Source of the DNA: a virus
Reading direction: 5' to 3' (one strand)
IMG/VR virus record: IMGVR_UViG_3300025276_000024
Location: 50,830-114,829 of that record
DNA: 64,000 nt
Under the pieces are notes generated by a model. The model had not been told where the DNA came from. It saw nothing but the letters and a program-made list of their open reading frames with translations, and made no database searches. Each line of letters starts with the position of its first letter. Position 1 is the stretch's first letter. A program made the position numbers and the translations under genes. Positions 19,901 through 55,510 of this stretch are shown here, one piece after another.

Positions 19901-21877
19901 CAAAGAATTGCACAATTAAGTAAAAACATTACAGATCAAAAAACCAAAGGTAATAAACCTACTTTTGTTAGACTAACAGATGAGTTTTTAAAGACTGCTG
20001 TAGATAGTACTGAAGACCTTACTGATAATGAAAGAATACAAATTTTATATCTATTTAAGAAGTTCAATGATCTTAAAACTTATACATCAAAAATGGGATC
20101 TGTTACTGCTCTTACAAAAGGCCTGCCTCAAAATATTCCTGCTGTAAAGAAAACTATACAAGATCTACAAGAATTGTTTGATAAGAAAACAGCCTTGATG
20201 AACTTATCTCCATTGTATAAAAGTAAAACATGGCAAAGCACATACTTAAAAATATTTAGTCAAATTTATTCTGACTTATTGCCAAACACTCTTTTAACAA
20301 TGAGCTCAGAGTTTGCTAGTGTTTTAGATCCAGTATATAGCGGTATGAATACTGATGACAGAGGTTTTGATAATGAAACAAGAAATGTTATTGAACAAGA
20401 TCTACTATCATATCTAACTATTAAGTCTTATCAAAAATTACTTAATAACAGTTCTGGTAATTCATCTGTAGAGAATACATTAATTTATCCAGGCCCTGTT
20501 GGAGCAACTGACTTGTCATTGATTAAAAAAATAAATGATTATCAGTTAGTAAGGGAAGAACAAGATTTAGAGTCTAATTACTTTTTAGATTCTTTTATAG
20601 GTACTAACTATGCCGGTACAGCAAGTAATAAAACAGGTCTAAACTTAGTAGTAGCAGATACATGGAGAAGACTCAACTCTGCTAATAAAATTGATTTACA
20701 AACTTCCTTTGCAAGGTTGTATGGTTCAATTGAAACAAGGGAATTAGCTGAGGATGTACTACATTACATGATGGTTAAAGATGGTCTACAACTTAAGTAT
20801 GGTACTTTAATGTCAGCAATGAGTCCATTTGTAATGAATAAGTATTTGACTAATGTTGCATCTGTAGAAAAAGCATTAAAAGGACAACTTGATTTTGAAA
20901 AAGTATTTGGTCTATCTAAACAAGAAGTAATGTCTGAGTTTAAGTATGGGTATCTACAATCTAATGTAGTAGGTCCATTATTACATACATATGATGCATC
21001 AGCTTTACAAGATGGCTTTGTTTGGGATCCAACAACTATACCTAATAAATTTACAGTTACTTCAGATGACTATCATGGAAAAGAGTTTATTAGAATTAAG
21101 AGTGAAAGAAATGGATTTTCAGGAATTGCTTATTACACTACATTCAGACTTCTAGAACAGGAACAAGAGAATGTATATGAATATGTAGAGATTTCATCTA
21201 TGGGATCTAATCAACAATTTGGAGGTGGCTTTGTAGGAGGTCCTAGATTAACATATCAACAAACCAGAAACCTAGGTAGAGGCACTCAACAAAATGACTA
21301 CCCGGCTAATGCATATGAATTGTCTAAGGATGAACTTCTAGAAGACTATTCACAAGTTGATGGTAAACCTGTAGGTACAGGTGTTGGTATTGTAGATACA
21401 AATCTTGAGAAAAAGCAGGAGATTACTGAAGCATTAAATTCTGAATCAGCAATTATAAATCAAACAAATGATAGCGTAAGTGTTAAGGTTGACGAAGATG
21501 CCAAAGAAGTAAATATTAGTAAGGAGCAGTTAATGCTGCAGGAGCTCTCTAAGAATCAAAAAAGTTTTATCTTTGATGAGAATGGTAATTCAATTATAGA
21601 GGATACTGATCAGTCTCTTCCTGAACAGACAGAAGAAGAACAACAGGAAACAGAAGAACTAAATGAAGGATTAAAAGATTCTGTAGAAGATGCTGAGGCA
21701 AGTATATTAGAAGAATGGTGGAGTAAGAATATAGTAGGTAATCCTGCAGCAATAGAAGCTTTAAGGGTTGATGGTATACAGAGTATAGATGATGCAAAAC
21801 TTTTATATGGGGATATGTTTTCTCAATCAGAAGATGGACAACAACAATTGATAGATAGACTTAAATGTCTTATATAA
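7958..21877 (+). CDS. Giant 4,639-residue virion protein with zincin motif and crAss-type RNA polymerase core
   Basis: One uninterrupted frame. The N-terminal ~150 residues (motif SGMRQTQFLRYYNHPEFD) resemble the leader of crAss-like giant cargo proteins. Hydrophobic stretches at about 225-260, 430-450 and 575-590 could help membrane passage. A Lys/Glu-rich helical segment near 2040-2090 leads into HEAFH at 2163-2167, a zincin metalloprotease signature, with further acids (EEYLADEFD) about 60 residues on. D3648-F-D3650-I-D3652 (GADFDIDKVY) matches the DFDID metal-binding loop of the double-psi beta-barrel polymerase of phage phi14:2, which enters the cell with the DNA and transcribes early genes. 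An acidic Gln/Glu stretch lies near 4557. The boundaries of the polymerase part are not resolvable by eye. Protease self-processing is plausible but not shown. Confidence 0.9.
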   Translation: MENESKGPLSEEIVSQQRPAPSIIPEGQFRFEPIADLFETPETNFNDLLMSGPLAADEISGVNEYKADIDKYGISAMASLGVGVPSFATDTYNPIAQDQPDKSTFSKMQELSTLPNAPVSTNRLAPVFSGMRQTQFLRYYNHPEFDKLGFSPYANMENFYNENSTIWDDMERMRGQWFSLAGTGLNSVYGSLTSGTDYLEPDLASASEFEDIMAISSSTRGGVGGFINNLAANSAYTGGILASIAIEEVILAGAAALQGGMNPVSDAALIARTAKNTVTGTKALYSFTKLFERTRKILQKAKELETARDFFTAVKSGGKMSLNLLGKGFTPNTVKAFRNIKTAENAGQNMSNLAKMSTKFGGFYRDLRAVNLAMAESKLEAGMVYNQVMRQGLTEASNKNMGKGPGEDFEGDIANAANNASFKAMLANAPLIYASNWFVIGNALGGFQRGIQRTLGNTFQKGFAKNIVNTAGKKVVNSAGELIKSPFKYVGNSFSNMWGKVKAGGFKGLTGAGSIAMLDYFAANVAEGIQEIGQEAISAATVGYYTEILDNPAQGGIDLRNQMIMSAMGDQFSAEGANVFLSGFLMGGLVSGPQKLFFQGVPSIYNYGLQQAGIGLASKSQKEAYAEYKKNREEMIDEVVKSYNKSWDTQAYDPSDLFDLTRMNFMVQKEAAESIRKNVFSQDRFGVIDAKDASKFSQYNYMFATGGSANFKNQLQGFLELSDEELIQAFPNVSKQDKQSGKLRERITSMMTSMDKIEDSYNRNKDKNVNPFNKNKYNRKTQETEYIAEALNQYAYDHVRYLQMFTENGFNRALERADGIYSILESEPLFKGMSANDITVLLDSDSIEKEISMLQQQIAATEGADKGLGESNKTKRQKIKRLTAMYKIVTDPQNRFKNGTFKRNKLLKGKLRSEFKNYVRFMASSKGEFVSEDKIDTALEQIVDYGALKGRARVYDKAIQYLQNPEKFAEIQQRQYEVNKVIYGKRAEITRRSVEKYTEVVEANEFVNQLAKEGIFADIGEMEMFLKTGNINFLQTFYDDNGLINPAVHEIKHGMIQRLIGDWKSTRKDVKPEEEKSEEEAAVEQTEDSRNKLDTLLDKAGITIDIDTTTNSPLVVKALKKNYALYRARQTRLGLPILDSVEWANSAEALDVRNTVNALKRIWASGEASVNSADGTLIFNNPKESDIINGDIGFEEFLQDSEVLINNPLVQSVLNQSTLDLSNIVSMAETELEEGESLPDTPQRQFYKGGLAGDIYKITTFDKTNNTTDVSYQILDKSGNPLSKEYLDFLDDNFASVQGTFLEKEAQIAKDALDALDETMPDTTEFSFDGVGGLTYGQPVYKGSVKYIVVQKPQYSNRFGDNQKLKVIKESENVGPISERKFEFIEQGDFANNFTVEETTFNLLPDSVTKIQIKDLTTLYPHTNYTELGAGENSIARESAIRSDNLKAKDRFNMILSELSPSEIEGLEFVVSLDPNGGNVRGAYTAKNRDGKIYKEANPLIDARTSKYIIGVRIANPKLRADINNKLIDSGMEISNSPEEVFAYLNNEAFIIRDQRTGKEIDPRSMNNEQASNVILQPNKNLTLEEKQAALSKVQNDFALNALIVQSFDKLDIGSTPQYFVAGSKELPFTIDLTAGGGKVAYAKSRERVYPIPMDALQYDTADSEGNLFVFNLKYNKETGQRDYDFTTNLKGAERDALEDAVELQLKKQNQWDNLLRAGKGTDRYLAMVRLPNGTFAKVNLKPTVYTTEELDAKQVEVVEAAKRIGAIKSMEKSIEEAVKYNAELQDSLFLSSKPGNLIELNVGPDGSIFLSLDNTNTKTSFNIGLTPEEVNATDRSAKDVINDLVEKFNLDTDGGGRVEKLSAELKSGNFRRSFPTDTDPQTIYDNAVTEVLPEVVEAQTVEVSASSDAIQLSRDIAFIPSNDKSKKVEEEGELGRERPTAEEDVDSVAYMEDAEFEEKLANVSQAGIGDMQKHIDHITNKILRNEGELNERELELMKEPFISQSVNLGVATMGGPGALASADSVEAGIETRLDKVNAELNSLRAELEKGLSKKEKIKAVRSSEKYKKLLAEKKKLEKGANKLIEVTTNRGRIEDYNKFLDWAADNLPEVIGIANLTTLANNGISEGYQRVGAFVMNLDRIANGININGTLYTSENSPYKYHEAFHGVFRMVLSQEEINKYRKIAKSELKAKYGSTYKTQLERFRNSAEAYQEMTALELENEFAEEYLADEFDNFKMKPSSSKTNADVKNLFTRIIEWIKSVFGKYSANELNTLFENIDAGKYKNAVIQANEFTQLDTSLSGSISVANATVRYGSASKVVAEGEPAGQLYVDTDVIDPLIRSMAGMFVNRVNKLSLKEQSYNPTEIYNDLEIDFMLMLDPAAAINSSFTGAKRKYLEQLDQAFINYPEDIKKEVFNLINIISDMDQSNALIVENIEDATGLRSTSEFNKDAAEIGGYNSLSFKVRSYIATTTLVGTDFFGKTELTEGEPLIVPVKFNEAYNSILKSVSNESDPVTMLKRMFSYSRLNPQGKAVVDKLFNDTGLSIEKLMTEDPFKDLKDGSLLISMLKGFENYKVDYIFNERDSNGNLLIYTASERDDINSQLDEWAQAFITKQKLALSDPKRVKDFLRLTKNMKEVMTSYPEDTSTIIGVSREFSQKMFDLIGIRLSPNYIAFSIASAKTESDLENSPELGALKQGYSDSTPLSNELLDQLYTGFKNNVNIFSKKEDGMASRLTTLSINNATFDETIGASTFVNPNGDVVYAHQLPTYHLKAIQALNTSVKRDQLMQDEYLKNNYLLNNEAFNELANQNRIKVIRIAGSKLKNQIETNDDSQTTEDILNESISKNKSTQSFGEFTPQEFAISLINNYTANFNRRSGKVETVVGLGKQDIALAPVFLRVMEAANTGDLTSLPIIKAVSIKADGSINLTPQAINVFMDSISAEFERINRETIEYQKSTGEIEGFNDSLEGRAFSFTNNEMLISGSLQESLINIAMQSGAKEEVISFEKAVSLAQGVSMAGIRSEVTKSLNESFKEFDTLLQDLKVKDNLSKQVLQGLTIGEGVARTSIELSGLKLNLNTNTSHNLQQIFFNNWIISKSINDLLLGDQAVSLKDMVDRVKRAKLQNAAYYSASSKVVDPSKGIFHESTNFDMFSFQEPKAKSSLTNNNIDLADAQAYITTKGVRYATFAFGRLSPAMSNMLDDIDVGNPIDADRAYGTEENTINLSEQQDFINSKKYVYMDGKTAIKMSVTVLTKEYTSNYNDNLGKWEAKPNMVELHYLREQMEANEEKNQNFAMAAPLSAIKMMKQSVNRLNPESGKFDKTRDLTSINLDTSYLGLQVINPSNKKIVTDMSQIKELITSEQDDNVEVEGMVDENGETMNVGALKVAYNKAVSERVTLKYKNKRNLIFSFDTALDEFELSKEAGAITPNLAAFLLEAQTSLQASGVSSNLLEFFSLEDGAQKYNLNSPVTAKRFESLFLTYFSKGTLREKVPGDAFALVSSFGHKVYRRVFEIKDGVPIRSEIVRESSMKGVTPEVSIDDLLQSAIPAEGVIVLDDLRTGVMEYKNGKPTGLRYSEVIMPPMDKNIMSLIYNSENASIPDAISKMFGVRIPTQDKHSAVNMKVVDFMPVYYGSSAIFPKELVEISGADFDIDKVYALMKEYYLDSNKNFVEYGAGNSYFEYVKYMNRQVKQAGNPIRTASDLYKDEVLSIRIDNALTDSEKNRLTDANGINKISEEALRAMLVLGLPATQAQFKSYVEKNGTPNEAVLNNRIVDLRYALAGNRGMTGSELSVLNDGQLKYDLPIAYQSADLAVLEDLFKRFSSTDSGMELFQNRVDSSVDVDNLTGMIKAFEANKGAAIGAIVKPNLYLSLLREYKIKLKSPIKFNNNTYDGFTQNEIDGVRIQDIVSSLITMETDNAKERLISKLGLNIQAVGIAGNMLSLGVSLDTTILLLNSAEVRDLFALALNKDDQFDPSLNTLLKQRIAQLSKNITDQKTKGNKPTFVRLTDEFLKTAVDSTEDLTDNERIQILYLFKKFNDLKTYTSKMGSVTALTKGLPQNIPAVKKTIQDLQELFDKKTALMNLSPLYKSKTWQSTYLKIFSQIYSDLLPNTLLTMSSEFASVLDPVYSGMNTDDRGFDNETRNVIEQDLLSYLTIKSYQKLLNNSSGNSSVENTLIYPGPVGATDLSLIKKINDYQLVREEQDLESNYFLDSFIGTNYAGTASNKTGLNLVVADTWRRLNSANKIDLQTSFARLYGSIETRELAEDVLHYMMVKDGLQLKYGTLMSAMSPFVMNKYLTNVASVEKALKGQLDFEKVFGLSKQEVMSEFKYGYLQSNVVGPLLHTYDASALQDGFVWDPTTIPNKFTVTSDDYHGKEFIRIKSERNGFSGIAYYTTFRLLEQEQENVYEYVEISSMGSNQQFGGGFVGGPRLTYQQTRNLGRGTQQNDYPANAYELSKDELLEDYSQVDGKPVGTGVGIVDTNLEKKQEITEALNSESAIINQTNDSVSVKVDEDAKEVNISKEQLMLQELSKNQKSFIFDENGNSIIEDTDQSLPEQTEEEQQETEELNEGLKDSVEDAEASILEEWWSKNIVGNPAAIEALRVDGIQSIDDAKLLYGDMFSQSEDGQQQLIDRLKCLI

Positions 21878-40568: not shown

Positions 40569-44196
<3,628 letters not shown>

Positions 44197-44220
44197 ATTT
44201 ATCTTCTAATTTTTATAGCC

Positions 44221-44250
44221 AAAAAAAGCCCAAATTAATGAGCTTTTTTT
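44221..44250. terminator. Terminator upstream of polB
   Basis: AAAAAAAGC and GCTTTTTTT form a perfect 9-bp stem with a 12-base loop. The A and T runs make it work on either strand; given gene direction it should end the transcript of the 140-residue gene, so polB needs its own promoter in the 25 bases after it or read-through. Confidence 0.7.
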
Positions 44251-44273
44251 AAGTCAATAGAGTCAACCACGAA

Positions 44274-44696
44274 CTACTGACCTGGAACTATAAGGTTGGA
44301 TACTTTTGTTTCTTTTACATCAACTGCAAGATAAGCATCATAATCAAAATCCTTAGCATTTACTGCAAATGTATGAATGAATGAATCTATATCACTTTTA
44401 TCTGATAAATAGAATTCTGAAAATGTGTCTACTAATCTTCTTTCTTCTTTAACTGTTTTACCAGTCTGTTGATTAGGTTGTTTTAATCTAATAGGTTCTC
44501 CGTCATCATTCAATCTAGGAACCATGTGGTAAGATTGTTTCATAACCTTACTAATTACAGCTAAGATGCCTGACGCAGGGTCAAACATAGCTTCAACATA
44601 TGGTGAGTCAATGCTCACAGGAATTAACGTAAATGATTTAGCATTTCTAAATGTAGAATTTACTAACATCATATTTTGTCCAATTGGTTTTTGCAT
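44274..44696 (-). CDS. 140-residue protein, unknown
   Basis: No family recognised. Mixed alpha/beta composition: an N-terminal block with NSTFRNAKSFTLIPVSIDSP and a charged middle (KTVKEERRLVDTFSEFYL). It ends before a terminator and precedes polB, so a replication accessory role is possible by position only. Upstream on the minus strand lies TTTGACAAAATAAAATACAT, AT-rich but too close to the ATG to be a normal promoter. Confidence 0.7.
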   Translation of the reverse strand: MQKPIGQNMMLVNSTFRNAKSFTLIPVSIDSPYVEAMFDPASGILAVISKVMKQSYHMVPRLNDDGEPIRLKQPNQQTGKTVKEERRLVDTFSEFYLSDKSDIDSFIHTFAVNAKDFDYDAYLAVDVKETKVSNLIVPGQ

Positions 44697-44704
44697 AATG
44701 TATT

Positions 44705-45280
44705 TTATTTTGTCAAATATATGGAACTATTTTTTAATAATTGAGTGATAACGTGATTATTATCAATCAAAGTTTCTTTGTCAAGATCAGGTGGTGTACA
44801 TACTTCATATATATCAGCTATAAATTCTATATCTACACCTAGTTTTTCTGCATATTCTTCATGGACACCTTCAGGGGTCAAAAAGCCTTCTACATACTTA
44901 CTAATTTTATCTTGTTTACCAAAGAAATCTATTATACTGATCTTACTATCTAAACTGAATTGAGAATATTTACCATTGATAAACTTTTTCACATCAGATT
45001 TAAAAGAACTAAAATCATAAATAAATAACTGAGAGTTTTCACTTAACTGTATTGCATCTTCAAAGAAAGGATTACTTAACAAATTATCCTTAGCAAATTT
45101 ATCAAAGACTTTAGTCTTCTTGGTTTTATATTGACATAGAAACTTGTTGTCACTAGGTGAATAGACATTATCCCATGCCACATACGTTTGTATAGGGACA
45201 TGGGTAATACCTTTCCTAATCTTTAGTAAAGGATAAAGAAATACTTTGCTTTTTTGAAAATACTCTGTATAAACACCCAT
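44705..45280 (-). CDS. 191-residue protein, unknown
   Basis: No domain recognised. The N-terminal half has a strand-rich pattern (KVFLYPLLKIRKGITHVPIQ, KFLCQYKTKK) and the C-terminal half is helical and acidic (GVHEEYAEKLGVDIEFIADI). It begins 1 base after the PD-(D/E)XK nuclease gene stop, so it belongs to that operon. Confidence 0.7.
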   Translation of the reverse strand: MGVYTEYFQKSKVFLYPLLKIRKGITHVPIQTYVAWDNVYSPSDNKFLCQYKTKKTKVFDKFAKDNLLSNPFFEDAIQLSENSQLFIYDFSSFKSDVKKFINGKYSQFSLDSKISIIDFFGKQDKISKYVEGFLTPEGVHEEYAEKLGVDIEFIADIYEVCTPPDLDKETLIDNNHVITQLLKNSSIYLTK

Positions 45281-45281
45281 A

Positions 45282-46271
45282 CTATAATTTAACCTTTTTC
45301 ACTAGTAATTCATAAGGCAATGAATAGTTTTTCTCTGTATAATGATAATTTGCAGTCTTTAATACACCACCTAAACCTTCCGCCCAGTTAGACATAGATT
45401 CTTGTGAAACATCAAATACATAAACTTGATTATATTTATCAATAACAATAAACTTAAACTCTATAGTATAATCATCTCTATCATCTCCAAGAGAATCATA
45501 TACCATTTTAGAATATATAGCCGCTTGTAACCAATAGTTATAAAAATCAACACTTTCAGCAAATTTATCTACTGTTTTACCTGATGTTTTCAAGTCACAA
45601 ATTGTAACTGTCTTTGTCTCAGTGTCAACTGTATAATAATCAACATAACCATGTAGACCAAAAGCAAATGTATCTAAATCAGATTTAAGATACTGTTCTG
45701 CATATGTAGTTATTGGATCTAAATCAAAGTCAGTTTGCTCATTTTTAAATAGCTTCATGACCTCTTCATTAGATTTAATTACCTCAGCTTTAGCTGTACA
45801 ATCTAATAAAGTATCTTGGTTAATAACATCTATAGAAGTGTTAGATAAAAATTCCCAATAAGGTTCATTATCTAATGTTCTAACTTTAGCTATTCTAGCC
45901 TCATCTGCTTTTAGAGATTGATATAAATTAAACTCTATTAAAGAGTCAAGTATTACTTTGTCATCTACATCAGCAAGCTTTACAGCTTTAGTATGCAATG
46001 ACATGTTTTTTAGTATCTTTCTAACACTATCTGATGGTGCTTTACCGGGTACTACGTTAAACTTATCATTTAAGTTCTCAGGTTCAAACACTAAACAATG
46101 TACAAGTTTACCTTCTACTAAATGTTTATCAGTTCTGATCTCACGATCTTGTAATATATAGTCCTTATAAAATAAGGATGGTGAAAACAATAATTTATTA
46201 AGGGAAGAATAGCTAAATGCAAATTTCTTGTTTGCATAAAACGTTTCTTCCCTTTGGAGATTTCTATTCAT
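45282..46271 (-). CDS. PD-(D/E)XK exonuclease-like protein (RecB/Cas4-type)
   Basis: 329 residues. FSYSSLNKLLFSPSLFY is the opening helix typical of RecB-like/DUF3799 nucleases; H58-type region GKLVHCLVFEPE follows. The metal site is GYVDYYTVDTETKTVTICDLKTSG, with Asp on the first strand and D-L-K on the second, then the QAAIYSKMVY helix (Q-x3-Y motif). Such nucleases resect DNA ends in recombination or repair. It overlaps the end of the upstream 380-residue gene by 8 bases. Confidence 0.85.
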   Translation of the reverse strand: MNRNLQREETFYANKKFAFSYSSLNKLLFSPSLFYKDYILQDREIRTDKHLVEGKLVHCLVFEPENLNDKFNVVPGKAPSDSVRKILKNMSLHTKAVKLADVDDKVILDSLIEFNLYQSLKADEARIAKVRTLDNEPYWEFLSNTSIDVINQDTLLDCTAKAEVIKSNEEVMKLFKNEQTDFDLDPITTYAEQYLKSDLDTFAFGLHGYVDYYTVDTETKTVTICDLKTSGKTVDKFAESVDFYNYWLQAAIYSKMVYDSLGDDRDDYTIEFKFIVIDKYNQVYVFDVSQESMSNWAEGLGGVLKTANYHYTEKNYSLPYELLVKKVKL

Positions 46272-47406
46272 TTACTATCATTTTATTAGTTAGTTCTTCA
46301 TTAATATATAATGAATCTAAGTCTACTTTAAAGACTTGAGCTTCTGGGCCAACTGAACTATTAAGAAATGTTGAATGAAGCTTTTCCCGTGTGGTATCTA
46401 CAGCAAATTTAGTTAATTTTCTATCAGCGGCCAAAAGGTTTAAGTAATTATTAAATGAATAAATGGTCTGACTAGTGTGGTTACCTTCATATTTTCTCAT
46501 TCTTTTTCTAAAAGCTTTTACATTAACTGTATTCCAATTAGTAGTATTTTTCATCCAATCAAAATTCCAATAATATATACCAGAAACTACATCAAAAGAC
46601 TTATCAATATTACAATTAGCTAGCATCTCTAATGCAAGAGATCTATTTTCTATATCACTACTCATAATCATTTTTTCAACTTCAGCTAATTTATCAGATT
46701 CAAGTACAGCAAGATCCTCATCTATTAGATTACATACATTTGTATCAAGTATAAGTGTAGAATTAATATTTGTTAATCTAGCATAATTTGCAAAGTTTTC
46801 AGGTGTTAAAACAAAATCATGGTTTGGTCTGTCACGTAAATTTGTATCTAAATAGTTTTGTATAATATCATGATACTTTTCTACTGCAGCACTAGCATTC
46901 CAATTTTTATTATTCTTGAATAAGACTACTGAGTTTCTATCTGCTTGAGTCATAAAGTCTCTTAGGACAATTAAAGCTGATTCAGATAATAAATCTAAGT
47001 CTTTTAAATGCTTAAATATATTATAGTTCTCTATAAAACTTATTGAAGAATTCCATTCTCTAAGGATAAGCTTATCAAAAAATCTCATAGATACTATATG
47101 TATATCAGCTTTATTAGGATCTCTAATAACTTTACATTTATATTTATCTTTCAGTAAATCTACCTTTTGTCTAGGTAAATCTAATTTTGGATATCTATAT
47201 ACTTTTTTATCTTGAAAGTCTGTTTTATCAGTTAATGTAGGAATACCCAAATGTTTTAAATCATCCGTTGTAACTTCCCAACCATTACCTACAAACAGAT
47301 GCATATTATCACTTAAACTCCAAGTGATTGCATCTCCCATAAGTTGACCATTAGCATCTATATGTTTATCCTCTATGTTAATCTGTATTTGATATTTCTT
47401 TTTCAT
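46264..47406 (-). CDS. 380-residue unknown protein, likely paralogue of its upstream neighbour
   Basis: No known domain. An N-terminal block YRYPKLDLPRQKVDLLKDKY... ADIHIVS parallels FILPKCSVSQDRLKAALKEH... ADLVIGH in the 359-residue gene just upstream. A later block (ENRSLALEML...) also parallels (EDSAVALKVV...). The two genes overlap by 29 bases. Placed between the MoxR-VWA pair and a nuclease. Function unknown. Confidence 0.7.
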   Translation of the reverse strand: MKKKYQIQINIEDKHIDANGQLMGDAITWSLSDNMHLFVGNGWEVTTDDLKHLGIPTLTDKTDFQDKKVYRYPKLDLPRQKVDLLKDKYKCKVIRDPNKADIHIVSMRFFDKLILREWNSSISFIENYNIFKHLKDLDLLSESALIVLRDFMTQADRNSVVLFKNNKNWNASAAVEKYHDIIQNYLDTNLRDRPNHDFVLTPENFANYARLTNINSTLILDTNVCNLIDEDLAVLESDKLAEVEKMIMSSDIENRSLALEMLANCNIDKSFDVVSGIYYWNFDWMKNTTNWNTVNVKAFRKRMRKYEGNHTSQTIYSFNNYLNLLAADRKLTKFAVDTTREKLHSTFLNSSVGPEAQVFKVDLDSLYINEELTNKMIVNE

Positions 47407-48457
47407 TGGTTTTTTTTAAATATTGTTGATATTCTTTTTTCACAGCTACTTTAAATGTATAAAGATCTCTGTTATGAATGCTTATCTCTCTTCTTACTAT
47501 AGGTTCTAGATATCTGAATGTTGTTTTACACAACTTATCATTTTCTTCTAACCATAATATCATATCCTGTGCACTCTTCCGGTTAAAACTTTCAAAATTA
47601 GAAGCTTCAATCCAGTACTTAAGATCTTTATCTCTAGCATCTGCATAGGTTATACTACTACAATCTTGTGCAAATTGCCACAGTAAATGATAGTTTGTTT
47701 TATAATCTATAGTAGGAACAACTTTAAGAGCTACAGCTGAATCTTCACTATAACGTGAGGAATCCAATTGAACTTTAAGATCTGCTAGCAATTGTTCATC
47801 AAGAACCATTTTGCTAGCTGAACTATGTAACACGGTCTCTGGGTCAACAACACTTAAATCTGTTGTATCTATAAGATGTGCTAAGTTTAGTGCCATACCT
47901 GTGATCATCCATACATCATATACACTGCTTTCTATATCTAAATCATAGTATCTTACTTTATCTGTTAACCTGTTGGTTATTAAAGTTGGGATACCTGAGT
48001 TATAAATTGCCATTTCCATAGGATGAGTAGCTGATTCTCTACCTTCAGTAGTTTCATAATTCCATAACTTTGCCATCATAAGAGTACTAGGTATATTATC
48101 CCCATTACTTATCTTATCATGTGGCGTTATATCATCATGACCTATAACTAAGTCTGCTAATTCAAAATCATTAGTCACAGTTATACTATGCTCTTTAAGA
48201 GCTGCTTTTAACCTATCTTGTGATACACTACACTTAGGTAATATAAAAGCTTTCTTTTTAGTTCTAAAAGTTTGGTCATCTTCTGTAGGGACTGTTAATA
48301 TACTGTGTATTTTTTCATATGTTGTTTGATCTTCAGTGCATAATACTTTAGATACCTCACTTGAACTAGAGATGACACCATTCATGGTATCATTCTCTAA
48401 TCCAAAATGAGCTAAAGCATCAGCATTGTAATCTTGATATACTGATTTGTTTGCCAT
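47378..48457 (-). CDS. 359-residue unknown protein, likely paralogue of the 380-residue neighbour
   Basis: See the paired gene at 46264. Features here: a Ser-rich N-terminal part, the block KKKAFILPKCSVSQDRLK at about residue 67, and a helical C-terminal half rich in Trp/Tyr/Asp. It begins one base after the MoxR-like gene's stop, so it is probably made together with it and may be a client or adaptor of the ATPase. Confidence 0.7.
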   Translation of the reverse strand: MANKSVYQDYNADALAHFGLENDTMNGVISSSSEVSKVLCTEDQTTYEKIHSILTVPTEDDQTFRTKKKAFILPKCSVSQDRLKAALKEHSITVTNDFELADLVIGHDDITPHDKISNGDNIPSTLMMAKLWNYETTEGRESATHPMEMAIYNSGIPTLITNRLTDKVRYYDLDIESSVYDVWMITGMALNLAHLIDTTDLSVVDPETVLHSSASKMVLDEQLLADLKVQLDSSRYSEDSAVALKVVPTIDYKTNYHLLWQFAQDCSSITYADARDKDLKYWIEASNFESFNRKSAQDMILWLEENDKLCKTTFRYLEPIVRREISIHNRDLYTFKVAVKKEYQQYLKKTNEKEISNTD

Positions 48458-48458
48458 T

Positions 48459-49730
48459 CTATTTCATTGTCATTTTAATGATTTCTGGTATCATCATTAG
48501 TTTATTAAACTTCTTCTTGTTACCATTAAAAATTGTACGTACAACTAAATACTTTAGATCATTAGTAAAATAATCTTCAGTACATAAAGCTTTAAGTCTG
48601 TCAGTAACTTTCTGACCAACTGTATTTTCATGAGAATATACAACAGCATAATTACCCAGTCTAGTTGCTAAAGTTGCTGCAATATCAGCACGGTACGTAT
48701 CATCTTTTCCTATACATCCTCTTAGTTCACCAAGAATGTAAGCCTGGTTATCATGTGTCAACAAATCTTTAGGTGTAACAAGCTTATCTAGCTTATTATT
48801 AATAAAGGTTGTAAACATAGAAGCAAAAGCATCACCAACACTACCTTCTCCAATCATCTGAATCATGCTTAGATTATCTTCAAAAGAATCAAAGCTAGAT
48901 ATAGAGTTAAAGAATGTTGTAATTGATCTTGCATTAGTTTCTTGAGTAACTAGTTCTGGATGAAGCAACAGGAAATTAATACATCTAGTATCTATTCCTG
49001 CACCCTCAGCCCATTGTGCCCATACATTAACATCAAACTTAAGATTAGCAGTTACATATCTAGTCTTCTGTGCACTATCTACACTGTTAACCATATAGTC
49101 ACCATTATCTGGGTTAGCTGTTAAAATTATGTGCCAGTCTTTTGGTAATGACCATGAAATATAAGTTTGTCTATCTATCAATTCCATAACTGCTTGGATA
49201 AATCTTGTATCAGCACGGTTCCAGTCATCTAGTAATAAGATACCACCGGCCTTTGCATCAGCAATCCATTCAGGTGCACAATAAGACATTCTATTTTTAC
49301 CAGTCATCTTAAATCCTTGTTTAAGATATTCTTGCACTGCAAGTTCATCAACCCATTGGCCAACTTTCTTTATGACTGGTTGTCCAATAATTGCTAGACT
49401 ATTACCGGCAGCTCTTTGAGCAGCAGTAACCATAGTTATATCATCAATCTTTTTAGCAGGCATACTTTTTTCTTTATACATCTGGAATTGACGTACAGGG
49501 AAACCTACTAAGTCACCTAGTTCTTCTATCTGTGCTAAATTAAGTTTTACAAACTTTAGTTTATTATCTTGAGCCAGCTCAACTATGGTAGATGTTTTAC
49601 CAATACCTGATTCTCCTACAACTTCTACTGATACAGGGCTTTTCCCCGCTTCTTGTAGAAATCTATTATTTGTGATTATGTGATTTACAAAACCTTTTAA
49701 CTCTGTTACATTTAAATTTACTTGTGCCAT
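48459..49730 (-). CDS. MoxR-type AAA+ ATPase
   Basis: 423 residues. Walker A GESGIGKTS (39-47), Walker B ILLLDDWNRAD (about 165), a sensor-1-like ILTANPDNGDY and an Arg-containing SAQKTRYV follow the MoxR order. MoxR ATPases remodel or insert metal centres into partner complexes together with VWA-domain proteins. The VWA partner lies 6 bases upstream (49737-50900). The D-D-W in Walker B replaces the usual D-E, which may change hydrolysis rate. Confidence 0.9.
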   Translation of the reverse strand: MAQVNLNVTELKGFVNHIITNNRFLQEAGKSPVSVEVVGESGIGKTSTIVELAQDNKLKFVKLNLAQIEELGDLVGFPVRQFQMYKEKSMPAKKIDDITMVTAAQRAAGNSLAIIGQPVIKKVGQWVDELAVQEYLKQGFKMTGKNRMSYCAPEWIADAKAGGILLLDDWNRADTRFIQAVMELIDRQTYISWSLPKDWHIILTANPDNGDYMVNSVDSAQKTRYVTANLKFDVNVWAQWAEGAGIDTRCINFLLLHPELVTQETNARSITTFFNSISSFDSFEDNLSMIQMIGEGSVGDAFASMFTTFINNKLDKLVTPKDLLTHDNQAYILGELRGCIGKDDTYRADIAATLATRLGNYAVVYSHENTVGQKVTDRLKALCTEDYFTNDLKYLVVRTIFNGNKKKFNKLMMIPEIIKMTMK

Positions 49731-49736
49731 TTTCTA

Positions 49737-50900
49737 TTAATTTAATTTTATTACTTGTCCTGGTAACTCATCATTCATATCAGAAATACTGCTTAAACAC
49801 CATAAGGTATTCTTTGGGCAGTTCTCTGGAGAATATGCTTCACCATCTGTTAAATATACAAGAGCTGTATAAACTCCTTTCTTTTCATTAAAATGATCTA
49901 TTACTGGTTGAAAACTAGTTCCACCACGACCATGTATTTCCCAATCATGTTTTGGATTAAACTCCTTCACACTTTTGAGTTGTGTATCACACTGTGCTAC
50001 TGTAATTTTATGGCCAGTCTTAACCATGTGTGCTAATTCATTAAAGAATTCTTTTAGCTCATCATTATTTACAGATCCACTTGTGTCAACACCAACTAGG
50101 ATATGATTCTTAAATTTAATTTTAAGGCCAGGATTGGCAGCATATCTTTTGTTGTATTTACGTCTCAGCTTTTTAGTATATACTATAGAAGAATTACCAA
50201 CAAATCTTTTTAGGTAACCTTTCCAGTCAAACTTAGCTGGTTCTATATGAGTAAGCCTATGTATAAGCTCTGCTAATTCTCCTGGAATACTTCCTGACTT
50301 CTTAACTGTTTGTTCTGCAGTGTCCTTTAACTGATGCTCAATTTGTTTTTGCATTAGTTTTTTGTCTGCTTCAGGTAACTCATCAAACTCATTCCAAGTA
50401 CTATGACAATGTTGGCTATTACCATCCATAGTGTCCATTAAGCTATCTAATGATGGGCAACTCCCATCTTCTTGTGCTTGTTCCAAAAGTTCATAATACT
50501 TTTTAGTACCTGCTTTGGTAGGAAGATTTAATTCAGGAAAACTACTTAACAACAATCCACCTGTAGGTAGCTTGCTTTCCAGTATGTACTGGTTGATCTC
50601 TAGATCTGCAGCTATATTAAATAACTTATGATCTGCATATAGGTCCCTTAAAATAAGATGTCCAAAAGCTATATGTAATAACTCATGCTTTATTAAGCCA
50701 AATCTATGATCTTCACTTAGATCACTATAGAATTGTGGATTTATAGTTAATTGCATACCAATACCGTGCTTGCTTACACCTGCTGTAGGTATACGCTCAC
50801 TGTATTGTTTATTTATGCCAATTAAAAAGAGCCCGTAAAAGGGCTCTGAAAATATTAAACTTTTGGTTGTTCTTGCAACCTGATCTTGAATGTTTATCAT
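49737..50900 (-). CDS. VWA protein with N-terminal metallopeptidase-like domain (DUF2201-type)
   Basis: 387 residues. Residues 72-81 read HELLHIAFGH, a full HExxHxxxGH metal site. The C-terminal half is a von Willebrand A domain with MIDAS residues DTSGS (about 269), GGTSF (about 331) and TDGE (about 353). This two-domain layout (PF13203 plus PF09967, as I recall) pairs with MoxR ATPases in bacteria; here the ATPase is the next gene. The start at 50900 keeps the N-terminal domain whole; a terminator-like hairpin lies inside codons 18-26. Confidence 0.9.
   Translation of the reverse strand: MINIQDQVARTTKSLIFSEPFYGLFLIGINKQYSERIPTAGVSKHGIGMQLTINPQFYSDLSEDHRFGLIKHELLHIAFGHLILRDLYADHKLFNIAADLEINQYILESKLPTGGLLLSSFPELNLPTKAGTKKYYELLEQAQEDGSCPSLDSLMDTMDGNSQHCHSTWNEFDELPEADKKLMQKQIEHQLKDTAEQTVKKSGSIPGELAELIHRLTHIEPAKFDWKGYLKRFVGNSSIVYTKKLRRKYNKRYAANPGLKIKFKNHILVGVDTSGSVNNDELKEFFNELAHMVKTGHKITVAQCDTQLKSVKEFNPKHDWEIHGRGGTSFQPVIDHFNEKKGVYTALVYLTDGEAYSPENCPKNTLWCLSSISDMNDELPGQVIKLN
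50824..50847 (-). terminator. Terminator-like hairpin inside the start of the VWA gene
   Basis: On the minus strand AGAGCCC, TTTTAC and GGGCTCT form a perfect 7-bp stem followed by TTTT, giving a five-T run with the stem's last base. It lies 53-76 bases after the ATG. It would attenuate transcription of the VWA-MoxR block, or may be tolerated coding sequence. Confidence 0.5.
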
Positions 50901-51199
50901 CTCTTCATAATTTTATCTAGTATTGTTTTGTATATAGAATGCATTGTTTGCTCTTCTATGTATATATATAGTTGTTGTTTTCCAATTAGTGGAATTTCTT
51001 TAAATAATACTGCATCTGCAAACTTTTTTCTATTCTTAAACATTAAAGCTTTATGCATTAACAAATCTGTAGTATCATCTTGATAATTACCTTTATAAAT
51101 TTCCCAAGCTAATTCTTGATCTTCTTTAAGACCTTGAAACATCTCTTTTAATTTAAAAAATTCATCAATAGTAATTACTTTGAGATCAGTTCTATCCAT
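50897..51199 (-). CDS. 100-residue protein, unknown
   Basis: Helical, charged sequence with no recognised domain. It overlaps the RusA-like gene upstream by 25 bases and the VWA gene downstream by 4 (ATGA), so it is co-translated with both. Confidence 0.65.
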   Translation of the reverse strand: MDRTDLKVITIDEFFKLKEMFQGLKEDQELAWEIYKGNYQDDTTDLLMHKALMFKNRKKFADAVLFKEIPLIGKQQLYIYIEEQTMHSIYKTILDKIMKR

Positions 51200-51552
51200 A
51201 CCCCTGGGTTTTCTTTACTATATTTATATTTTTCAAATCCGGGTATAATAAACTCAGCATTATCATCTTCAATCCATCCATATTTAACCATATCATCTTG
51301 TACAGTCTGTGCAGGATTTATGTAGTCAAACTTATGACGGCTGCCTCTAATAAACTCAAACGTTATTTTAACTGGTAACTTATGTTTTTCTAACTCTGTT
51401 TTAAAGTCTTCAGCATAACTAAGATATATATCTTTAGTTGCTTTTCTATAAGTCATCACGGCCTTACTTGCTATAAAGTATTTACCTGTCCAACGTCTAC
51501 CATTCTTACTAGAAGGAACGTTACCTGGTATCCACCATTTTTTATTTTCCAT
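51175..51552 (-). CDS. RusA-like Holliday junction resolvase
   Basis: 125 residues, the normal RusA length. GNVPSSKNGRRW near the start matches the RusA N-terminus, and KFDYINPAQTVQDDMVKYGW followed by IEDDNAEFI carries the acidic metal ligands (the E. coli RusA D70/D72/D91 arrangement). It would resolve recombination or replication branches before packaging. Follows the primase gene by 1 base. Confidence 0.85.
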   Translation of the reverse strand: MENKKWWIPGNVPSSKNGRRWTGKYFIASKAVMTYRKATKDIYLSYAEDFKTELEKHKLPVKITFEFIRGSRHKFDYINPAQTVQDDMVKYGWIEDDNAEFIIPGFEKYKYSKENPGVWIELISK

Positions 51553-51553
51553 A

Positions 51554-52531
51554 TTATTTATTTAATGTTTCTTTTAATAAAGGTTTAAGCATTGCATGTA
51601 ATTTATCAAATCCTATTTCTTTCATAGCATCTGATATGTCTTTGCATATAGTTGGTACAAATCCATAGATATTATATGTTTTTGCATACATATCTACAGC
51701 ATGTCTACCGGCATCATCATTATCAAAAAGAGTTATTACTTTTTTGTATTTCTTCTTCAGGTGCTCTACTATGTGAGGTTTAATCATAGTATTCTCTGAG
51801 TCAGGACTAATAACTTCTATATTATATCCCATACTCTTCAGACACATAGCATCTTTAAGTGATGAACAAATAACTAAATACGGTTCAGTATATTGTAACT
51901 GATCTTTACCTTGTAAATATGACTTAGCTTTATAAAACTTGTACTTCTTACTAAAAGGTTGGTACATTTTATATACATCATCATTTTTATCAAAATATCC
52001 ATAACACCACTTACTACCTATAGTAAGCTTGTTTATCTCTCCCGCCTCTTCTTTGACTAAATTATAATAATCAATTGGTTTAACGTTGTACTCACTTAGC
52101 ATAGTCTTACCTATTCTAAATGATAACCAAAACTTTCTATCTTCAGTTGTCCACTGCCTTTCTTTAATGAAATCAATTTCCCATTTATTCTGAGGCTGAA
52201 ATTTTTGTTGTACATATTCAGATGATCTAACATGTTTGTTATAATCAGATACCATTCTTGTCATGGCACCATGAAAATCCATATTAAACATCACTTTTAC
52301 TAAGTCTATTTTATTACCACTTCTGCCTGTTGAAAAGTCTTTAAACTTATACTGCATAATAGATTTATCTACATATATGCAAAAACTAGGAGTACGTTCA
52401 TTAGGATTAAATATAGATTTAATCTTTATGTCTTGACCCGTTAGTTGTTCAGGAAGATCTAAGTAGTATTGAAAAACCCAAGTGCTTGGTACATCTTGTC
52501 CTTCTGCTACAATGTTTTTAGTGTTAAACAT
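51554..52531 (-). CDS. DnaG-like primase (TOPRIM)
   Basis: 325 residues. The N-terminal part has a DnaG-like pattern (NPNERTPSFCIYVDKS, DFSTGRSGNKIDLVKVM). The TOPRIM region is LVICSSLKDAMCLKSMGY then VITLFDNDDAGRHAVDMYAK; the DxD motif (DNDDAG) is intact, but the usual EG before xxDA reads SS, so the catalytic Glu is missing or shifted. No N-terminal zinc-binding domain is visible. It primes DNA synthesis with the DnaB-like helicase of the same block. Expression must start after the terminator at 52547-52578. Confidence 0.8.
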   Translation of the reverse strand: MFNTKNIVAEGQDVPSTWVFQYYLDLPEQLTGQDIKIKSIFNPNERTPSFCIYVDKSIMQYKFKDFSTGRSGNKIDLVKVMFNMDFHGAMTRMVSDYNKHVRSSEYVQQKFQPQNKWEIDFIKERQWTTEDRKFWLSFRIGKTMLSEYNVKPIDYYNLVKEEAGEINKLTIGSKWCYGYFDKNDDVYKMYQPFSKKYKFYKAKSYLQGKDQLQYTEPYLVICSSLKDAMCLKSMGYNIEVISPDSENTMIKPHIVEHLKKKYKKVITLFDNDDAGRHAVDMYAKTYNIYGFVPTICKDISDAMKEIGFDKLHAMLKPLLKETLNK

Positions 52532-52546
52532 AAAATCAAAGATATT

Positions 52547-52578
52547 AAAAAAAAAGGGCCCAGCATTACACTGAGCCC
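52547..52578 (-). terminator. Rho-independent terminator after the SSB-like gene
   Basis: On the minus strand GGGCTCAG, TGTAATG, CTGGGCCC then nine T: eight pairs including one G-U and a long T-run. It separates the Sak4/SSB-like transcript from the primase gene. Confidence 0.85.
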
Positions 52579-52600
52579 AATTTTCACAATTAACTAACTA

Positions 52601-53275
52601 CTACAATTCAAAGTCAGATCCTGCTGCAGGAGCTGGCTCAAAATTACTTGCAGGTGTTGATTCCTTTTTAATCATAGGTCTGAAATGATTGGTATCATTT
52701 TTATCAAACTCAGTTAAATTAGAATTCTCTGCATCTAGAGCTTCTAGAGGCACACCCATTCTATTTCTCTTTGGTAAAAATAAGTCATTGTTTACATAAC
52801 CTTCTTTGTTTTCCCATTCACGTGCACCCAAACATGCATTAATGTATCCTGTTTGAGAACAGATTTTTGCAGCCTTTAACATAAAGTCTTCAATTGTTCC
52901 TGCCTCAATAGCATCAAGTTCATCTCTCTTTCCTACAACTTCAGATAAGAAAACCATAGCTTTCAACACTTCTGTGTCTCTGCTGATTTCATTACCATTG
53001 TTTAGTGTAGCATCTTTAAATGGATACGGAGAGAATCTTACTCTGCCTACCTGGCCTTCATAACGTGGCCCATTAGGATTATTTACATCTTTTAGGAAAC
53101 CATTAAATTCACCTTCAACAGGCTCACCTTCAATGTGCAATGTGATGTTGTAAGCATCAGCATCATATGGAGTTTGATCAAATGTAATTGAATTGATCAT
53201 TACTTTTTGATTTCCTGTTCCAATTACTGGTTTTGTTCCACCTGTTCCGGCAGACATGTCTTTAGTACTTAACAT
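52601..53275 (-). CDS. Probable single-stranded-DNA-binding protein
   Basis: 224 residues. A central region with beta-strand pairs (KVMINSITFDQTPYDADAYN, LHIEGEPVEGEFNGF) could be an OB fold, and the end GSDFEL is a short acidic/hydrophobic tail of the kind SSBs use to recruit partners. It is the gene after the Sak4-like ATPase, a pairing seen in phage single-strand annealing systems. No direct family match is claimed; confidence rests on tail, length and neighbour. Confidence 0.6.
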   Translation of the reverse strand: MLSTKDMSAGTGGTKPVIGTGNQKVMINSITFDQTPYDADAYNITLHIEGEPVEGEFNGFLKDVNNPNGPRYEGQVGRVRFSPYPFKDATLNNGNEISRDTEVLKAMVFLSEVVGKRDELDAIEAGTIEDFMLKAAKICSQTGYINACLGAREWENKEGYVNNDLFLPKRNRMGVPLEALDAENSNLTEFDKNDTNHFRPMIKKESTPASNFEPAPAAGSDFEL

Positions 53276-53304
53276 AATTTTTGATTTTTTTTATTAATAA
53301 TTAA

Positions 53305-53988
53305 TTATTTGTTGTATGCATTGATACAACTGGTTACAAACTGTAGGTCATTGTCAATAAATTTATTTTCAAACATACCCATTGGTGATTTACATGTGTT
53401 CTCACCATTGTTTTGGGTCTCAAAACCATAGACAAGTTCACCATCATCATTTTTATTTACTTTTCCAAATAAAACAATAGAGAATAGGCCTTCTAAAGTT
53501 AAAGTGTTGTCAATCATTTTTCCAACAGTTTTAGCTTTAATCTTTCTATTTCCATTAATATCAGTTGAATCTTCTGAGTGAGTTAAGAAAATGATAGTCA
53601 AGTCTTCTCTTAGATCTTTAGGTAGCTTAGCAACTTGTGCTAAGTTAGCTGCAATCTGAGTAAACTTTTCATAACCTTTTTCATTAGCTCTATCAAAATA
53701 TTCAAAAGAACTCATATATTGCCAATCATCAACTACAATAGTTTTGATATGGCTCATTTTGTCATTTACATGACGCATTGCCTTAATAATACCTGGTGCA
53801 GTTGCAGCAGATGTTAAGTTACCTTTGGGGTTTTCTTTTGTTATCTGAGTATACTTACTCTTCCAACCCTTAAAAGGTAGAGGCTTGTTTGCTATGTTTA
53901 TAATGAAAGTCTCTTTTGGATCTAATGTCCTGATTGAGGTAGACTTTCCTGTACCTGAATCTGCAATTACTAATACGCTGTTTGCCAT
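53305..53988 (-). CDS. Sak4-like RecA-family ATPase
   Basis: 227 residues with Walker A ADSGTGKST (9-17) and Walker B KTIVVDDWQYM (about 87), then LTIIFLTHSED as a sensor-like strand. Size and motif order fit Sak4 proteins, phage ATPases that help anneal or exchange strands together with an SSB, and the SSB-like gene is next. A plain AAA ATPase of other role is possible. Confidence 0.8.
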   Translation of the reverse strand: MANSVLVIADSGTGKSTSIRTLDPKETFIINIANKPLPFKGWKSKYTQITKENPKGNLTSAATAPGIIKAMRHVNDKMSHIKTIVVDDWQYMSSFEYFDRANEKGYEKFTQIAANLAQVAKLPKDLREDLTIIFLTHSEDSTDINGNRKIKAKTVGKMIDNTLTLEGLFSIVLFGKVNKNDDGELVYGFETQNNGENTCKSPMGMFENKFIDNDLQFVTSCINAYNK

Positions 53989-53990
53989 GT

Positions 53991-54557
53991 TTATTTAATT
54001 AATTTATTGATTACTTTGGTTAATGTTATTAATGTTTGATTTATATCTTCCAACTTGTCAACCAGTGCTGTAGGACTGTTTGCATCAGGGTTAGGTAAAT
54101 CAAATAATGTTTTAGTTACATCTGCTATAAACTTTGGTTTTTCTATTACAGACTCACCTGATCTAGAGGTTATATCATTTATAACTTTTAATTCACTAAC
54201 CGGTATAAGATGTCTTTGAAACCCTGAACTAGATGTTACTAACTCATATTCTGATTTCCAATGAGGATTACATTTATGTAAATATAATGTTCTTTTTGGG
54301 TCTTCAGTGTCATAGTCAATAGATACAAACTCTGTGTAAATATCTTTATCTTTTTCAAGCTCACTAGGAAAGAATGATACATGTAGATCATCTTTACCTT
54401 TTGGTCTATAAGCCATCTTTGGTATATATAGAGCATTTACATTACCACTTTTTTGGAAATAATCTTCATGCTCTTCTTTTAATTTGTTTACTTTTTGTTT
54501 ACGTTCATCAGGAGTTAGTCCCATAATTTCTGTCTTTATTTTTTTAGTATTTATCAT
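53991..54557 (-). CDS. 188-residue protein, unknown
   Basis: No domain recognised. N-terminal helix with basic residues (TPDERKQKVNKLKEEHEDYF), a beta-rich middle (RTLYLHKCNPHWKSEYELV) and a C-terminal coiled-coil-like helix (LVDKLEDINQTLITLTKVIN). Overlaps the helicase gene by 4 bases, so it is co-translated with it. Confidence 0.7.
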   Translation of the reverse strand: MINTKKIKTEIMGLTPDERKQKVNKLKEEHEDYFQKSGNVNALYIPKMAYRPKGKDDLHVSFFPSELEKDKDIYTEFVSIDYDTEDPKRTLYLHKCNPHWKSEYELVTSSSGFQRHLIPVSELKVINDITSRSGESVIEKPKFIADVTKTLFDLPNPDANSPTALVDKLEDINQTLITLTKVINKLIK

Positions 54558-55510
54558 CTACGTTCTTGTTGTGCAGGTGTTGCCATTTCTGCAATTTGCA
54601 TTTTCTCAAATTCTGCTTTGAAAAAACTCATTCTTGCATCACCGTTTCTAGCTTTTAGGAAATGTAGCACAAGAGTTCTATCATTTTCTATAAGATATCT
54701 ATCAGGGCCATAGAATCTAATCTTTTGTTTAGCTGGCCTATTGATACCTATCAACATATCTGCATGTTGTAGCATAGCATCTGATCCAAATATATCTGAC
54801 TCAAGAATATAATTACCATACTTGCCATCAATTGCTCTGTCAGGGTTATCAATATTTCTATTGAGTTGTGATAGTGCAATAAATAAACAAGGATAGTCAC
54901 GCTTACATTGTGTAAAGAATTCACCTAGTTCAAATAACATATCTAATGAATTGTTTTGATAGGGTGCTCTCTTTACAAGCATAGTGTGATCTAATGTAAT
55001 AATTGTTTTCTTTCCTTGATGTTTAACCATGTAAGCGTCAACTTGCTCACGCATTTGATTTACTGTCAAGGGTGTTGATATAATGTCAACAGGATACTTT
55101 ACTCTTTCCTTTGCATACTGGTGACAATTGTTAAGTGTCTCTGTACTTAATACAGATCCTGCGCTACATAGTTCTTTATATGTTTTTCCTGTTATAGAAC
55201 TAAATTCTCTAATAGCTGATGTTCTACCAACCATCTCAAACTGAAATTCTAAAACTCTAAAGTCATCATTAGGATTAAGCATAAAAGACTCACGTATAAT
55301 TTGATCTTTAATCAAAGTTTTACCTGAACCTGGTCTACCACCAATAACAGTCAGTGTGTTCCATTCTAAGCCATCAGTAGCTGCATCATTAAACTTAGGC
55401 CATGGAGTATATATAGATTTCTCTTCTCCTGTTGACCTAGCATACATATATTTTAGTGCATCATTGAAGGCTGTGTATTGGCCCACCCATGCTGGTGTTG
55501 GTTTACCCAT
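54554..55510 (-). CDS. DnaB-like replicative helicase
   Basis: 318 residues. Walker A GGRPGSGKT (57-65), Walker B TIITLDHTMLV, and ALSQLNRNID (motif with sensing Gln) are typical of DnaB-family RecA-like motors; a conserved Arg-rich FLKARNGD is near the end (arginine finger region). The usual N-terminal primase-binding domain is absent, giving a short helicase. It should unwind DNA at the fork with the polymerase of this block. Confidence 0.88.
   Translation of the reverse strand: MGKPTPAWVGQYTAFNDALKYMYARSTGEEKSIYTPWPKFNDAATDGLEWNTLTVIGGRPGSGKTLIKDQIIRESFMLNPNDDFRVLEFQFEMVGRTSAIREFSSITGKTYKELCSAGSVLSTETLNNCHQYAKERVKYPVDIISTPLTVNQMREQVDAYMVKHQGKKTIITLDHTMLVKRAPYQNNSLDMLFELGEFFTQCKRDYPCLFIALSQLNRNIDNPDRAIDGKYGNYILESDIFGSDAMLQHADMLIGINRPAKQKIRFYGPDRYLIENDRTLVLHFLKARNGDARMSFFKAEFEKMQIAEMATPAQQERR

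Follow-up and report, generated by a model that had tools for sequence, protein, structure and literature searches.

What does a run of five tightly packed genes do in the replication region of a phage, and do all five belong to one system? The block encodes a MoxR-type AAA+ ATPase, a metallopeptidase with a VWA domain, two related proteins (here U1 and U2, of the U family) and a nuclease. An initial annotation took them as one candidate undescribed system that could act against host defences or process replication complexes. The stretch analysed, hereafter the window, is 64 kb long and is part of a 114.8-kb viral record.

Gene layout in a crAss-like marine phage

The terminase, portal and major head protein of the window phage match crAss-like phrog_6681, phrog_6547 and phrog_11589; that is, it carries the crAss-like TerL, portal and MCP by which Crassvirales are recognised. 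The matches of its TerL to named phages are mainly from Crassvirales, at about 20–26% identity, from which we take the window phage to be a deep marine relative of this order. The titles of MAGs conflict on the host (Pseudomonadales, Campylobacteraceae or Sphingomonadaceae), which is probably a binning effect. By eye, a 4639-aa protein (7958-21877) with a DFDID motif looks like the crAss-like RNA polymerase, a GroEL-like chaperonin gene (40569-42203) lies directly 3′ of the DNA polymerase gene, and two long structural-region proteins, encoded upstream of the window in the same phage (L381:11679-13895 and L382:2110-8298), show DxSxS sequences resembling VWA/MIDAS motifs.

The five genes lie where they were originally placed, all on the minus strand and nearly gapless, with spacings of 6, 1, -29 and -8 nt. 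Their assignment to a phage replication block also held, with genes for RusA, a primase, a Sak4-like protein and DnaB located 5′ and a polymerase gene 3′; the inventory of the block was nevertheless incomplete, because it missed a small related gene, mini-U, which is directly 5′ of the VWA gene and overlaps it. The features, in the direction of transcription, are:

51175-55510, minus strand: upstream replication/recombination cassette, whole (Pfam, PHROG; same order in Suoliviridae)
54554-55510, minus strand: DnaB, upstream cassette
53991-54557, minus strand: gene without assigned function, upstream cassette
53305-53988, minus strand: Sak4-like gene, upstream cassette
52601-53275, minus strand: SSB-position gene, upstream cassette
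51554-52531, minus strand: primase, upstream cassette
51175-51552, minus strand: RusA, upstream cassette
50897-51199, minus strand: mini-U, 100 aa, resembles the U helical domain (hhalign; remote similarity)
49737-50900, minus strand: VWA-metallopeptidase, 387 aa, N4 gp25-like, phrog_1314 (Pfam, PHROG, motifs)
48459-49730, minus strand: MoxR-type AAA+ ATPase, 423 aa, phrog_1297 (PHROG, Walker A/B)
47378-48457, minus strand: U1, 359 aa, proximal copy of the U family (AF2, Foldseek, profile alignment, tree)
46264-47406, minus strand: U2, 380 aa, distal copy, U-family paralogue by sequence comparison (AF2, Foldseek, profile alignment, tree)
45282-46271, minus strand: PD-(D/E)XK exonuclease, ExoVIII-like, phrog_412, neighbour in the same operon (Pfam, PHROG)
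42205-45280, minus strand: downstream genes, whole, order kept in relatives
44705-45280, minus strand: gene whose homologue adjoins the exonuclease 3′ in Suoliviridae (E 0.001-0.002)
44274-44696, minus strand: downstream gene, order kept
42205-44196, minus strand: phage DNA polymerase, phrog_1252, order kept

The VWA protein matches DUF2201_N (3.9e-17) and DUF2201 (7.1e-16) in Pfam and phrog_1314 (1.9e-63) among PHROGs, and joins a zincin, whose HExxHxxxGH motif spans residues 72-81, to a VWA domain with a MIDAS. The zincin motif is kept in all 78 distinct relatives and the MIDAS motif D-x-S-G-S in 75 of them; the protein is 386-390 aa long across the window clade, and the Pfam match runs to residue 386 of 387. 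The MoxR protein matches phrog_1297 (1.4e-34), with AAA_5 and AAA_3 from Pfam only below threshold, and its top PDB match is to the AAA module of midasin, over 66 residues. Its Walker A motif (GESGIGKT) is kept in 73 of 74 distinct relatives, and the core LDDWNRA of its Walker B motif (LLLDDWNRA) in 94 of the 95 haplotypes described below; the DD pair, also seen in six deep relatives, stands where DE is usual, which makes ATPase activity putative. The motor and its two-domain partner were therefore correctly recognised in the initial annotation. As phrog_1297 and phrog_1314 proteins encoded by adjacent genes (6 nt apart), they have the features of a pair of the N4 gp24/gp25 type, and 480 records of named phages, including N4-like phages, cyanophages and jumbo phages, match the VWA protein. 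Two faecal records also matched VWA, but they contain bacterial genes and were not kept as gut phages.

The name ‘HNH endonuclease’ given to the zincin-VWA family (phrog_1314) by PHROGs and RefSeq seems to be a misannotation that has spread, because the DUF2201 match is clear and there is no Pfam match to HNH. Several MoxR genes are interrupted: that of freshwater contig L412 contains a group I intron (1346-1767; Rfam RF00028, 91 bits, match 1467-1724) exactly at Walker B, and those of L413, L418 and L486 are in two pieces with an ORF of 249-264 aa between them. In phage Pollock (L084), the N4 gp24-like gene is likewise split, with an HNH gene.

The VWA–MoxR–U trio and the separable exonuclease

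Hundreds of aquatic crAssphage-related phages carry a VWA gene followed by MoxR and by one or two copies of U. The gene order of the block recurs in 80 marine contigs, and hence its linkage is not a chance effect. The order was also invariant in the window's clade, where 363 loci gave 95 distinct four-gene haplotypes and genes were absent at contig ends only, except for a small variable gene before VWA; relatives carried either one U or both.

Linkage was evaluated using MoxR as the sole query, with relatives down to about 50% identity, and the count of downstream U genes was restricted to loci with at least 1.3 kb after MoxR. A U gene was next after MoxR in all 60 loci with room for it: within 300 nt in 57, after 614 nt in one, and as split U genes in two. 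VWA was directly 5′ of MoxR in 68 of 72 loci, and the remaining four had it at another place in the locus; the exonuclease, by contrast, was within 6 kb in 31 of 43 loci only. The scans covered the best 80 loci, and the inseparability holds for this MoxR clade, at about 50% identity or more; in the distant MoxR–VWA pairs of N4-like, cyano- and other phages U was not detected. Searches starting from U and from MoxR led reciprocally to the same type of locus. Partial rate correlations, a distance-based measure of co-evolution with a weak signal here, were small (VWA-U1 0.40, U1-U2 0.20).

The trio also occurs in other surroundings. In contigs L472 and L487, which have a terminase/portal family different from that of the window phage, it lies within a few kb of TerL and portal, the packaging genes, and the replication context is therefore not obligatory. 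The cassette is missing at the trio locus of L472 and L479.

The nuclease shows another distribution. It matches PDDEXK_1 (7.3e-06) and DUF3799 (7.8e-07) in Pfam and exonuclease VIII, phrog_412 (3e-18). The cassette of gut Suoliviridae has the order DnaB – Sak4 – SSB – primase – RusA – (AAA ATPase) – exonuclease – small gene; it shares this order, as well as homologues of the primase, exonuclease and polymerase, with the window, and the window primase, exonuclease and gene 44705-45280 have homologues at matching positions. The gap between RusA and exonuclease, however, holds an AAA ATPase or nothing in Suoliviridae, and VWA, MoxR and U in the window. The 17 records of Crassvirales and crAss-like phages contained neither phrog_1314 nor U. 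Since Suoliviridae hold the exonuclease cassette without the trio, the run mini-U–VWA–MoxR–U1–U2 fills the RusA/exonuclease slot of an older cassette. The trio and the exonuclease of the crAss-like L436 (101 kb) lie about 10 kb apart, and the latter was not found in the partial contigs L472 and L487.

The exonuclease is, then, a gene of the crAss-like recombination cassette that is separable from the trio. We dropped the idea of a five-gene system with nuclease, because the exonuclease goes with its own flanking gene in Suoliviridae devoid of the trio and is unlinked in L436. Occurrence of the genes apart in relatives had been named at the outset as the observation that would speak against a common system: it was made for the nuclease and, within this MoxR clade, not for VWA, MoxR and U, so that these stay together and the nuclease leaves the block. 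The conserved core is VWA-metallopeptidase, MoxR and U, in this order, and both its third protein and the trio as such appear to be new.

Two further observations concern this region. An additional 278-aa gene without assigned function lies between U2 and the exonuclease in L410 (9480-10316). In gut crAss-like phages, a different AAA_5 ATPase and a DUF7192 protein are encoded between the SSB-position gene and the primase (L162:11042-13172 and L160:5570-7670); this pair is possibly a functional counterpart.

The U family

U1 and U2 had no sequence match in Pfam, PHROG or PDB, and U1 and other family members had none in tblastn searches against named phages. Viral contigs queried with a single U2 sequence gave no recovery; the query patterns sat in variable parts of U2. 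Direct comparison of U1 with U2 hinted at paralogy at most: it was weak by BLASTP (E 0.019) and reached an hhalign score of 29.96, against a mean of 17.6 and a maximum of 29.1 for shuffled sequences. In freshwater contig L412, the single protein at the U position matches the profiles of both U1 (E 1.8e-7) and U2 (4.8e-11), and several further single relatives match the two HMMs alike. Against a profile of these bridging proteins, the U1 profile reached a probability of 99.3% (E 3.8e-20) and the U2 profile one of 99.8% (E 4.6e-28). Because bridging single-copy relatives align to each of them, the homology suspected initially is established at the level of sequence, with U1 and U2 as paralogues of one family.

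In a midpoint-rooted tree of 56 U proteins, whose U1 side has a support of 0.99, the proximal copy of two-copy loci belongs to the U1 clade and the distal copy groups with U2 outside that clade; single-copy phages carry either a U1-type or a U2-type protein. This split points to one old duplication followed by losses.

The AF2 models obtained for each protein singly had pLDDT values of 81 (U1) and 90 (U2) and were collinear in secondary structure: both show an alpha/beta segment (residues ~60-110), another alpha/beta region and, at the C terminus, an array of helices. With Foldseek, U2 matched 2le0 (probability 0.99) and 2cok (0.93) in PDB over ~50 residues (E 0.08-0.2), and U1 matched a phage BRCT protein among viral models (0.87); Pfam BRCT was detected in 2 of 19 members, below threshold (best E 0.026). 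The segment at ~60-110 looks, on these models, BRCT-like, short of BRCT proper. Four viral proteins were matched by both models; a crAss-like virus is the source of one of them, and two come from one and the same phage. Foldseek matches of U2 to clamp loaders were dismissed, their probability being at most 0.15.

Members of the family combine a conserved core with a variable middle, and the top family signature, M-x2-S-S-D-x2-N-x3-A-x-E-x3-N-C-x-Y-x2-S, falls in the helical region. U2, the most divergent protein of the block, is well conserved at residues ~60-100 and ~220-300 only. Among open-access papers, searches for MoxR with crAss-like phages, BRCT with crAss-like phages, and BRCT with MoxR and phage retrieved nothing, and the U family appears to be new and undescribed.

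Of 149 loci, 115 have a small U-like ORF ahead of VWA, and 54 of these ORFs are matches to the family of the window gene (g50897). This family aligned with U at 85% probability (E 5.8e-6), and the 135-148-aa mini-U of relatives at 97.8% (E 1.3e-12); mini-U thus resembles the U helical domain, with remote similarity.

Proposed role and known systems

We lean towards the view that VWA, MoxR and U form a three-component phage machine, to which a duplication of U and mini-U were added in the window clade. By analogy with CbbQ-CbbO, RavA-ViaA and midasin, a MoxR ring would bind the VWA protein, whose MIDAS site would hold a carboxylate of the client while ATP hydrolysis drives client remodelling or extraction. 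The zincin domain, which to our knowledge is absent from CbbO and ViaA, may cut the client or the VWA protein itself. U1 and U2 would be dedicated adaptors or obligate clients, their conserved helical domain docking on MoxR/VWA or on the other U and their fast-evolving N-terminal and middle regions recognising the target. MoxR is one of the two slowest-evolving genes of the block and U2 the fastest (median distances of 0.138, 0.21, 0.50 and 1.17 for MoxR, VWA, U1 and U2); a slow MoxR/VWA with a fast, partly conserved U fits a constant motor with a variable part for target recognition. As a first guess, and the weakest step of the scheme, the target would be a replication or recombination nucleoprotein complex, because the operon sits in that cassette and U looks BRCT-like in one segment. 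A narrower version, which we consider unlikely, makes U a new adaptor family whose BRCT-like domain directs the MoxR-VWA ring, equipped with its own protease, to DNA ends or to replication/recombination intermediates; if true, it would be the first MoxR machine dedicated to nucleoprotein remodelling during phage genome replication.

Alternatively, and with a lower but still appreciable probability, the trio may be a virion-assembly chaperone for capsid, portal or tail proteins, which it would fold, assemble or mature by proteolysis, with U as scaffolding adaptors or virion parts. Iyer et al. proposed this role for the jumbo-phage pair, with the archaeal ATV pair as the analogue (PMC7824862), and RPP1 genes close to gp24/gp25 encode virion proteins (PMC4193335); the proximity of the L472 trio to TerL and portal and the VWA-like segments seen by eye in structural-region proteins of the window phage agree with it, whereas the embedding of the trio in a replication/recombination operon in the window clade and most relatives, and the lack of resemblance of U to any virion protein family, do not. 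Location and the BRCT-like segment thus point to a replication/recombination target; L472 and the published proposals point to virion assembly.

All genes of the cassette are packed equally tight, as would be expected if the U proteins were independent recombination/replication factors merely sharing an operon with MoxR-VWA; this is improbable, given that the trio is intact where the cassette is not, as in L436, L472 and L479. Very improbable is the initially suggested action against host defences, in which the trio would dismantle or cleave a host immune complex recognised by the fast-evolving U: MoxR-vWA ternary systems do take part in bacterial conflicts (PMC7159879) and U2 outpaces every other gene of the block, but all members examined have the trio and none has exchanged it, in contrast to what is typical of accessory anti-defence genes, MoxR and VWA rank among the most conserved genes, and curated defence models (PADLOC) gave no meaningful match, only a 32-residue P-loop match to DolB.

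If VWA, MoxR and U do form one machine, U is its informative part. The MoxR–VWA-peptidase is a core pair of N4-like and many other phages, and U, never apart from it in hundreds of aquatic phages, offers a handle on the target: its fold, partners and variable region can reveal what the machine acts on. The proper gene set for testing is therefore VWA–MoxR–U, nuclease excluded, with U as a new family for annotation.

The claim of an undescribed system applies to U and to the trio as such, since the MoxR–VWA pair is already known from N4, jumbo phages and cyanophages. Genes 24 (‘unknown’) and 25 (‘vWFA domain’) are core genes of N4-like phages (PMC4193335), and gp24/gp25 of Schitoviridae are, as in the window, a homologous MoxR-type ATPase and zincin-VWA protein encoded by adjacent or near-adjacent genes, although in reversed order and a different context; the whole record of Pollock, the schitovirus tested, lacks a U homologue. 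In jumbo phages, MoxR and a metallopeptidase-vWA were described as a chaperone–cochaperone pair with a suggested role in virion assembly (PMC7824862); the group 2.2 pair has the same two-domain cochaperone and MoxR motor as the window, but no third component was described for it, whereas the trio has U. The ternary conflict systems (with VMAP, iSTAND or FtsH; PMC7159879) likewise combine MoxR and vWA with a dedicated third protein, but are bacterial, whereas the trio belongs to a phage; their third component is VMAP, inactive STAND or FtsH, to which U is unrelated as far as its lack of a significant match to any Pfam or PADLOC family shows, and the window protein ends with the VWA domain, in place of the diverse effector domains that follow it in those systems. 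In CbbQ–CbbO, the VWA protein is the substrate adaptor and holds an acidic residue with its MIDAS site, while remodelling of the client falls to the MoxR hexamer (PMC4660213). An AAA+ ring with a VWA MIDAS grip on a client is the principle that the window trio would be expected to share with CbbQ-CbbO, RavA-ViaA and midasin (PMC4660213), each applied to a client different from that of the trio.
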